This document shows positions 12,959-29,988 of a stretch of DNA of 33,624 bases, one piece after another. Origin of the DNA: Chloroflexota bacterium. Its GTDB lineage: Bacteria > Chloroflexota > Anaerolineae > Anaerolineales > UBA11858. Below the pieces are notes generated by a model. That model worked only from the letters and a program-made list of their open reading frames with translations. It made no database searches and was not told the origin of the DNA. The position numbers and the translations under genes were made by a program. Positions within the stretch are counted from its first letter, which is position 1; each line of letters starts with the position of its first letter. Where the stretch lies: NCBI GenBank assembly GCA_018648225.1, contig JABGRQ010000067.1, forward strand, positions 1 through 33,624, read 5' to 3'.

Positions 12959-13013
12959 CCGAAAAAAGGGTGTGCATGGGGTGCTACGCACCCCATGCAC
13001 ACCCTTTTTTCGG
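12959..13013. terminator. 26-bp perfect hairpin after the exporter operon
   Basis: Arms 12959-12984 and 12988-13013 are exact complements around TAC. The outer part is CCGAAAAAA/TTTTTTCGG. The AhpD-like gene starts 30 bases later on the same strand, so this either ends the exporter transcript or separates expression of the two units. Confidence 0.8.
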
Positions 13014-17179: not shown

Positions 17180-17226
17180 CGCAAAAAGGAGGGTTGAGTG
17201 CTTCGCACTCAACCCTCCTTTTTGCG
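17180..17226. terminator. 22-bp perfect hairpin between convergent units
   Basis: Arms 17180-17201 and 17205-17226 are exact complements around TTC, with the base CGCAAAAAGG/CCTTTTTGCG. It separates the plus-strand ybaK cluster from pspC on the minus strand and can stop both. It marks the switch to an all-minus gene block. Confidence 0.9.
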
Positions 17227-27439: not shown

Positions 27440-27516
27440 GTTGAAGGTTGCTGGTTGAATGTTACAGGTTGTGGGTTAGCGATGTAACTTTCAACCTTCA
27501 ACCTGTAATTTTCAAT
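27440..27516. repeat. Heptad-based inverted repeat, copy 4
   Basis: GTTGAAG, GTTGCTG, GTTGAAT, GTTACAG and GTTGTGG follow one another as 7-base units, then the complementary type (TTTCAAC, CTTCAAC, CTGTAAT). It lies about 26 kb from copies 1-3 and overlaps the rluD stop by a few bases. Confidence 0.8.
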
Positions 27517-28432
27517 CGGCCTTTAATTGTTCTAAAATTTGCGTTAAATCATCGGGCAATGGCGCTTCAAACGTGTGCGCTTTGGCCTCGCCAGGGATGA
27601 CAATGGAAAGCCGTTGGGCGTGCAAGAATTGACGTTGCAGCGGCAGGCTGGGGGTATTGCGGCCATAAACGGTATCGCCAACGACCGGGCATTCAAGAAA
27701 GGCCAGATGCAGGCGAATTTGGTGCGTGCGCCCGGTATGGATGTGAACTTCGAGCAGGGTGTGTTTGTCGAAATTCTCCAGCGTGAAGAATTCGCTGATG
27801 GCTTCGCGTCCCCTGTTCGCGGTGGTAACTGCCATGCGTTGACGCTGGGAAGGGTCGCGCCCGATGGGGGCTTCCACGCGTCCGGTGGGGGTGGGCGGTT
27901 GGCCGTCTACCAGCGCCAAATAGCTTTTACCCACCTGTCGATCTTGAAATTGCTGGCTCAACCAGTGCTGGGCTCGGTCATTTTTCGCCATAATAATCGC
28001 GCCGGAGGTGTTTTTATCCAGGCGATGCACCAACCCCGGGCGTTTTTCGCCGCCTACACCTTCAATTTCGGGAGCGTGCGCCAAAGCGGCGTGGATCAGC
28101 GTACCGCTGGCGTGTCCCGCGGCGGGGTGTACCACCATCCCGGCGGGTTTGTTGATGACGAGGACATCGTCATTTTCAAAGAGAATATCCAGCGGAATGG
28201 CTTCGGGGATGAGTTGGCTGGGCGCTGCCGGAGGAATGTGGACTTCGATTTGGTCACCGGTAGCTAACGCAAACCCCGATTTGTGGGGAATGTCATCATT
28301 GACGGTGATATGCCCGGCGGTGATGAGCGCCTGGATGCGGGCGCGGGATAGTTCCGGGATGCGCGTGACGAGAAATTTATCGAGGCGTTCTGGCGAAGTT
28401 TCTTTAAAAATATAGTGTAGTGAGCTGGTCAT
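27512..28432 (-). CDS. rluD: RluD-family 23S rRNA pseudouridine synthase
   Basis: This enzyme isomerises uridines in 23S rRNA (in E. coli at 1911, 1915, 1917). The 306 residues have an S4 RNA-binding domain (about 15-62, RLDKFLVTRIPELSRARIQA) and the RluA/RluD catalytic domain with HRLDKNTSG, where Asp139 is the catalytic residue, NKPAGMVVHPA (94-104) and GRTHQIRLHL. The lspA-rluD order resembles Bacillus lspA-ylyB. GGAGG stands 8 bases before the ATG but lies inside one arm of a 14-bp inverted repeat, so translation may be gated (see 28440-28533). I cannot tell which exact uridine it modifies. Confidence 0.93.
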   Translation of the reverse strand: MTSSLHYIFKETSPERLDKFLVTRIPELSRARIQALITAGHITVNDDIPHKSGFALATGDQIEVHIPPAAPSQLIPEAIPLDILFENDDVLVINKPAGMVVHPAAGHASGTLIHAALAHAPEIEGVGGEKRPGLVHRLDKNTSGAIIMAKNDRAQHWLSQQFQDRQVGKSYLALVDGQPPTPTGRVEAPIGRDPSQRQRMAVTTANRGREAISEFFTLENFDKHTLLEVHIHTGRTHQIRLHLAFLECPVVGDTVYGRNTPSLPLQRQFLHAQRLSIVIPGEAKAHTFEAPLPDDLTQILEQLKAD

Positions 28433-28439
28433 GCTTCAA

Positions 28440-28533
28440 ACCTCCGAGATTTTCCAATCTCGATTTACTATAACGTTCGTTCGCGAGAATAGATTGATGT
28501 GCCAATACCGATTTTGGCAAAAATCTCGGAGGT
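28440..28533 (-). promoter_or_regulatory. Candidate RNA switch hiding the rluD ribosome binding site
   Basis: Read on the minus strand, the arm at 28533-28520 (starts ACCTCCGAG) is an exact 14-base complement of the arm at 28453-28440, which contains the GGAGG of rluD. The same 3' arm can instead form a local 7-bp hairpin (28462-28445) with the loop GGAA, a GNRA type, leaving GAGG free. A third stem, GCCAA/TTGGC, lies at 28518-28501. The two folds are mutually exclusive. Confidence 0.5.
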
Positions 28534-28537
28534 CTCG

Positions 28538-29101
28538 TTAAGATAGCTGTCCATCCTCAAGGGGATTTTCTATTCCCTCAGCGGGTTGCTCAGAATCTTG
28601 TTCGGCGGCTTTTGTTTTGCGTTCTTGCATCCACATCCCGATGATGAGTACAGCGACACCAATTGAGATGCTTGAATCGGCGACATTGAAAACCGGGAAA
28701 GAGCCTACAGAGATAAAATCGGTCACATAGCCGCGGGCGATACGATCAATCAGATTGCCAAGCGCGCCAGAAATCTGCAATCCCAATGCCAAACGCAGCG
28801 GCCAATCTGTGTGCGGAATTTGTGGATAGTAGTACAGGATCATCACGATGACGATGACCGCCAGAATCATCAGCGGGGTGTTCGGGTTCAGGCTTTGCCC
28901 CAAACCAAAGGCCGCGCCGGTATTTTTCCAGTTGACGATCCGCGCATAAGGCGCCAGCCAATCCCAGGGTACCCAAGTATAGCTTAATTGCAAATTGTTA
29001 CGCACCAGGGCTTTGGTCCATTGGTCGAGGCTGACAACGATACCAACCAGTAAAGCCAGCCACGCATAATCTTTCAGATACTTACTCAAGAGAGCCTCCA
29101 A
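28538..29101 (-). CDS. lspA: Signal peptidase II (prolipoprotein)
   Basis: LspA cleaves the signal peptide of diacylglyceryl-prolipoproteins in the membrane. The 187 residues have four predicted helices and the family motifs: DQWTKALVRNNL (26-37), NWKNTGAAFG (57-66), SGALGNLIDRIARGYVTDF (111-129) and FNVADSSI (138-145). The aspartyl dyad is Asp128 and Asp142. A longer acidic C-terminal tail (about 167-187, EQDSEQPAEGIENPLEDGQL) extends the usual length. It precedes rluD on the minus strand. Confidence 0.96.
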   Translation of the reverse strand: MEALLSKYLKDYAWLALLVGIVVSLDQWTKALVRNNLQLSYTWVPWDWLAPYARIVNWKNTGAAFGLGQSLNPNTPLMILAVIVIVMILYYYPQIPHTDWPLRLALGLQISGALGNLIDRIARGYVTDFISVGSFPVFNVADSSISIGVAVLIIGMWMQERKTKAAEQDSEQPAEGIENPLEDGQLS

Positions 29102-29138: not shown

Positions 29139-29189
29139 CCGAAAAATAGGGGTGTAGGGCGAATATCACCCTACACCCCTATTTTTCGG
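29139..29189. terminator. 21-bp perfect hairpin after the hydrolase gene
   Basis: Arms 29139-29159 and 29169-29189 are exact complements around a 9-base loop, with the base CCGAAAAATA/TATTTTTCGG. It lies between the alpha/beta hydrolase and lspA genes, both on the minus strand. Confidence 0.85.
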
Positions 29190-29223: not shown

Positions 29224-29988
29224 TTAGTGGGGAATTTTTTCTAAAAAATCGCTTAATGCTTGGGCAACGGCCGCAGGTTCTTCAATTTGAAGCATGTGCC
29301 CGGCCTGTGGAAAGATTTGAAGTTCGGCGTGGGGGAGTTGATCGCTCAGGTATTGGGCGCGGCGGGGCGGGGTGAGTTGGTCGTTTTCGCCGCAGAGTAC
29401 CAAACAGGGCGTCTGAATTTGATTCAGGGAATCCATAATGTCGAAGGTGTTGCAGGCGAGGAAGTCGCTGTGCAGCACTACCGGGCGTGTCTCGGCCATG
29501 CGTTTGGCGCCCAGTTTTTTGAGCCGCTCTGGCGTCTTTGGGCCGAAAGCTCTTTCGGTCATGGCCGCGATGACGGAGGGGAAGGTCTCGGGGCGGCTGG
29601 CATTCTCTATTAGAACGGGATCAACCCGCAGCCGCGCGCCCGTTCCCACCAGCCCGAGGGCCAGGACTCGCTCGGGGTGGTGAAGCCCCATTGTTAGGGC
29701 GATTGCTCCCCCCATAGAGTGTCCCACAAAAACGGCCTGGTGGATTTTTTGTGCGTCCAGCCATGCCAGCACGCTCTCACAATAAGCGGCGATGTTTTGC
29801 CGCCCGCGGCCTTCGGATTTGCCGTGACCGGGCAAGTCGATGGCGTGTACATGAGCATTGGGCAATCGGCGAATTTGCGGCGGCCAGTGCAGATGGGTAC
29901 CGCCAGCGCCATGAATGAGAATTACACTGGGGCTTCCAATGGTGCGAGTTGCGTGTTCAAAAGCATAGATGCTGGCATTTATAGGCAT
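29224..29988 (-). CDS. Alpha/beta-fold hydrolase
   Basis: This 254-residue alpha/beta hydrolase has a clear triad: Ser91 in VGHSMGG, Asp203 in CGENDQLTPP and His231 in AGHMLQIEEP. The oxyanion segment is LIHGAGGTHLHW (24-35), and DLPGHGKS (51-58) is typical. The substrate (ester, lactone, acyl or C-C) cannot be predicted. The ATG 29988 has AAAGGA 6 bases upstream and is preferred to an in-frame start at 30057 that would overlap the preceding gene by 59 bases. It follows the small membrane protein gene by 10 bases and is likely cotranscribed with it and the kinase. Confidence 0.9.
   Translation of the reverse strand: MPINASIYAFEHATRTIGSPSVILIHGAGGTHLHWPPQIRRLPNAHVHAIDLPGHGKSEGRGRQNIAAYCESVLAWLDAQKIHQAVFVGHSMGGAIALTMGLHHPERVLALGLVGTGARLRVDPVLIENASRPETFPSVIAAMTERAFGPKTPERLKKLGAKRMAETRPVVLHSDFLACNTFDIMDSLNQIQTPCLVLCGENDQLTPPRRAQYLSDQLPHAELQIFPQAGHMLQIEEPAAVAQALSDFLEKIPH

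Follow-up and report, generated by a model that had tools for sequence, protein, structure and literature searches.

The palindromic feature in the gap between lspA and rluD is, with a probability of about 80%, a 96-bp member of a REPIN-like palindrome family dispersed in Anaerolineales genomes. The window, by which we mean the whole 33,624-nt stretch of DNA that was analyzed, belongs to a 4.0-Mb draft assembly of 226 contigs (genome G000). An earlier interpretation made from the sequence alone, in which the gap encodes a dedicated two-state translational switch for rluD, is partly supported but mostly fails.

All features of the locus lie on the minus strand. The lspA gene (28538..29101), which encodes signal peptidase II (Pfam PF01252, E 6e-35), carries the element at its 3′ end and is followed by a gene for an rluD-type pseudouridine synthase (27512..28432; Pfam PF00849 (PseudoU_synth_2) and PF01479 (S4)), whose ATG at 28432 is conserved in the same-genus genomes G004 and G005. 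As the sequence-only reading had noted, the gap contains an exact 14-bp pairing between 28533-28520 and 28453-28440, with 66 nt between the arms and the rluD GGAGG in the 3′ arm. One extra base on each side extends this inverted repeat to a complete element of 96 bp (28439..28534), the arms of which are those of the ~32 paired copies found in G000; the 96-bp length recurs in the f1 and f7 genomes. The 5′ arm, GACCTCCGAGATTTT (28520..28534), begins 3 nt past the lspA stop codon (28540-28538). The 3′ arm, AAAATCTCGGAGGTT (28439..28453), is identical at 14 of 15 bases in the G004 ortholog and contains GGAGG (28441..28445), the probable Shine-Dalgarno (SD) sequence of rluD, 8 nt ahead of the ATG. 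When the RNA of 28432-28540 was folded, it reached -37.0 kcal/mol (z = -4.5), a stability equaled by none of 200 shuffled sequences. The 14-bp inverted repeat is thus far above chance, yet this locus is not the only one to have it.

Pattern searches of the genome, from which all copy counts are taken, revealed the arms at many other places. There are 24 matches to ACCTCNGAGATTTT in the 4.0 Mb and none to the reversed control, while allowing at most three mismatches to the 16-mer AGACCTCCGAGATTTT gives 134 matches versus 20 for its control. These matches pair head-to-head into elements bounded by the family consensus arms GACCTCCGAGATTTT...AAAATCTCGGAGGTC, with middles that are unlike one another, and 32 such paired copies were extracted from G000. 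Only ~15 nt at each end are repeated. Alignment of the middles of the G000 96-mers found no common sequence, except for a TTTTGGCAAAAATCTCGG-like edge in some of them. The sequence-only reading had itself named recurrence of the 94 bases at unrelated loci as evidence against a switch; as far as the arms go, which are dispersed genome-wide, it is contradicted on its own terms, whereas the middle is not repeated. The lengths of the 32 copies fall into classes of 31-39, 60-64, and 92-96 bp, plus one copy of 139 bp, with none at 40-59 or 65-91 bp and a best period of ~31 bp. Across the family, the arms show 19 changes on both sides of a pair (shuffle mean 3.8, maximum 12 in 5000), 17 of which fall in the short length class, and the stem is maintained.

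The distribution of the family across the class is patchy. The exact 14-mer arm is present in 14 of 61 relatives, and within the class 15 of 396 genomes contain GACCTCCGAGATTT. Two genomes from another family of the order, G051 and G026, harbor a homogeneous 96-bp subfamily that folds as one long hairpin, which suggests a recent spread there. The 96-bp copies in G051 (L034, L143-L151) sit within an outer second palindrome, GTGAAATAGTGGGGT / ACCCCACTAATTCACGAAGAGC, as if palindromes were nested. In the titles and abstracts searched, we found no described palindrome family of Anaerolineae.

The window contains further repeats. Near-perfect long palindromes are found at 12959-13013, 29139-29189, 2595-2645, and 17180-17226, several of which have TACACCCCTATTTTT-like arms (14 genome matches with up to one mismatch versus 1 for the control). 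The palindrome at 29139-29189, with a T-rich tail and located ~35 nt past a hydrolase stop codon at 29224, resembles an intrinsic terminator. Repeats of the TTGAAGGTTGAAAATTGAA / AACCTTCAACCTGTAACC type, which are imperfect palindromes, occur at 61-126, 1655-1735, and 27450-27520, the last of these being at the 3′ end of rluD.

Copies of the family lie mainly after stop codons and not ahead of starts. In G000, 24 of the 32 copies follow the stop codon of an ORF (80 aa or longer) at a distance of no more than 25 nt, as compared to 12.5% of random window positions, with ORFs called heuristically by length and a background of random rather than intergenic positions. The gaps that hold them are convergent (6), divergent (2), or codirectional (17), and 12 of the 17 codirectional copies are closer to the upstream stop than to the downstream start, a modest bias. 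Since it begins 3 nt past the lspA stop, the copy under study is first of all a palindrome of the lspA 3′ end, in the slot that is usual for such families. The GGAGG is suitably spaced from a start codon in few copies: L001 (8 nt), L067 (7 nt), and perhaps L012 and L063.

These properties are reminiscent of REPINs, the REP doublets associated with RAYT transposases (PMC3116915). As in REPINs, two short inverted ends (about 16 nt in REPINs) are conserved and dispersed as extragenic doublets (32 copies here, with the exact arm found 24 times versus 0), the spacer is kept by length and not by sequence, and the element forms a single long hairpin with compensatory changes. The location at gene 3′ ends, in unidirectional and convergent gaps and close to the upstream stop, is also that of REP elements found less than 20 nt from stop codons (PMC3733652, PMC12306157). 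However, the sequence is unrelated to those REPs, and in the lspA-rluD copy one arm also carries the SD of the next gene. Moreover, in contrast to REPINs, the ends lack a terminal GTAG or CGTC tag, the extracted copies ending in AGACCTCC / GGAGGTCT, and the lengths come in ~31-bp steps that differ even between orthologous sites. Nor is there a linked RAYT. The draft G000 genome has two Y1_Tnp genes, and their loci of about 3.3 kb contain no arm-like sequence at fewer than four mismatches; neither gene being near an arm, a Y1 transposase was rejected as the mobilizer. Because the tag and the linked RAYT are missing, we call the family REPIN-like rather than REPIN.

In most junctions examined, lspA and rluD overlap or are a few bases apart, leaving no room for a leader, and the gap is present in three same-genus genomes, G000, G004, and G005. 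G004, whose LspA is 78% identical, is the only genome with an ortholog of this exact element, and the two align over 96 nt with no gap. In the middle, 31 of 65 positions match G000 (shuffle p = 3e-4), while other 92-96-bp copies score 6-23, and the GGAGG of the ortholog is likewise 8 nt ahead of the ATG. On the repeat reading, an ancestor shared by G000 and G004 already carried the element at this junction. In G005 (LspA about 92%), the same post-stop slot is occupied by an unrelated palindrome, CCACAGAGAG... (z -5.4). Elsewhere, orthologous sites shift between size classes from G000 to G005, from 92 to about 31, from 95 to about 50, and from 60 to about 94 bp. A different palindrome family is found at the L011 and L065 sites in G005 and at the L004 and L009 sites in G004; three of these were folded. 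Some palindrome thus seems to be maintained in the post-stop slots, with turnover in the family that occupies them. The orthologous sites at which a switch of size class or palindrome family was noted include L004, L009, L018, and L063 and the G005/G004 orthologs L160-L179. In G004, a single intergenic gap at C105 (L177) stacks several palindrome families, one of them being the family of the lspA-rluD repeat with a GTGAAGCAC-type middle.

Could the element instead be a MITE of the classical type, bounded by terminal inverted repeats, mobilized by a DDE transposase, and devoid of any RNA role? Like MITEs as outlined for MITEAba12 (PMC6382973), it is a short noncoding element with terminal inverted repeats, its middles are variable, the homogeneous copies of G051 and G026 suggest recent spread, and the exact arm has a patchy distribution in the class (15 of 396 genomes). 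Unlike in that outline, we recognized no target-site duplication at the orthologous sites compared, the one apparent empty site (L022 versus G004) being too diverged for calling one. No parent transposase bearing the family ends came to light either; the transposase genes inspected were the two Y1_Tnp genes, neither of which is near an arm. The bias toward gene 3′ ends and the covariation of the arms fit REP/REPIN behavior better, and a MITE is unlikely.

That the element is the intrinsic, Rho-independent terminator of lspA, in which case rluD would need its own promoter, is improbable. The family does reside at the 3′ ends of genes, several other copies have a T tract after the arm, and another copy has a G005 ortholog that resembles the hairpin of a classical terminator. 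At lspA-rluD, however, the loop is 66 nt long, the stem is followed by just TTT and then GAAGC (tail TTTGAAGC), no promoter was found for rluD, and a terminator scan of the minus strand at the element detected no GC-rich short-loop stem with a T tract. A terminator at this copy was rejected for want of a T tract.

We then come to the switch itself, in which a long fold would hide the rluD ribosome site and a local hairpin would show it, under the control of a ligand, an RNA or protein factor, or an internal promoter. Its structural parts are in place. The 7-bp local hairpin with a GGAA loop, CGAGATT-GGAA-AATCTCG, is present at 28445..28462, and the third small stem, TGCCAA-(8)-TTGGCA, lies between the arms at 28500..28519. 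The predicted fold is strong, and in the full lspA-rluD transcript the SD is predicted to be fully paired (unpaired probability 0.00), which agrees with the masking that had been proposed. The complementary claim, that the local fold exposes the site, holds partly in prediction (0.02-0.62 unpaired per base in a short transcript beginning after TATAGT) but finds its hairpin broken in G004. In that ortholog, 12 of the 14 pairs of the long stem persist (two of them as G-U) and two are broken, and the position of the SD is retained, whereas 5 of 7 pairs remain in the GGAA hairpin, the two disrupted ones being internal, and 3 of 6 in the small stem. In G004, the sole ortholog, two mutually exclusive folds are thus not both conserved: the long-stem state receives weak support and the second state no comparative support. 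The TATAGT, which had been considered a possible -10 of an internal promoter, is indeed on the minus strand, at 28472-28467 (two bases from where it had been placed), but it lacks a -35 and is not conserved in G004, and we found no sigma-70-like promoter on the minus strand near the element. The internal promoter was rejected on these grounds. The absence of any known riboswitch family was borne out by an Rfam search of the element, which gave no match at the gathering threshold or at E up to 1. With no Rfam match, no promoter, and no conserved alternative fold, a ligand switch for rluD is unlikely. Considering in addition that the arms are dispersed genome-wide, that copies are located mainly after stop codons, and that the leader is missing or replaced in relatives, a dedicated cis-acting switch of whatever kind is very improbable.

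For this copy of the REPIN-like family, the default reading is a passive 3′-end palindrome with an incidental ribosome site. The element may influence rluD, but not as a dedicated riboswitch. At most, and tentatively, it might couple rluD to the translation of lspA by ribosome unmasking, as our fold modeling would allow. In the best reading, the repeat copy supplied the SD of rluD, its 3′ arm (GGAGGT) being at SD distance. The transcript would form a long hairpin starting 3 nt past the lspA stop and hiding this SD, and a ribosome finishing lspA would cover or melt the 5′ arm and so free it. When the first 15 nt past the stop were removed from the fold, mimicking a terminating ribosome, the predicted unpaired probability of the SD rose to 0.03-0.79 per base. 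Translation of rluD would then be tied to that of lspA with neither a ligand nor an alternative promoter, and coupling by hairpin would stand in for the coupling by overlap that relatives probably use. This resembles the RNA-unfolding model of translational coupling described in a review (PMC12548453), where the downstream ribosome site likewise lies in a hairpin with a 5′ arm starting at the upstream stop codon. The difference is that the lspA-rluD hairpin derives from a dispersed repeat, with a coupling that we infer. An effect on the upstream gene is also conceivable by analogy: REPs less than 16 nt from a stop codon reduce translation in Escherichia coli, as cited in PMC12306157, and the lspA-rluD hairpin, 3 nt from the stop, would be within the range in which E. 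coli REPs are cited there as lowering translation of the upstream gene.

Taken as a whole, the fuller scenario is doubtful. It holds that a RAYT-less REPIN-like family, with copies in ~31-bp steps (three helical turns), changes size class or is swapped for other palindrome families at one post-stop slot between sister species, and that one copy was recruited as a ribosome-binding and translation-coupling element for rluD, replacing the gene overlap of relatives.

A first implication is one of caution, since what looks like a strong RNA switch, plausible at its own locus, can prove to be a repeat copy. Beyond this, a dispersed palindrome after a stop codon can both give the next gene its SD and hide that SD in one hairpin. 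Palindromes of this kind would turn repeats into operon wiring, an idea that the swapped palindromes at orthologous slots in three sister genomes make testable.
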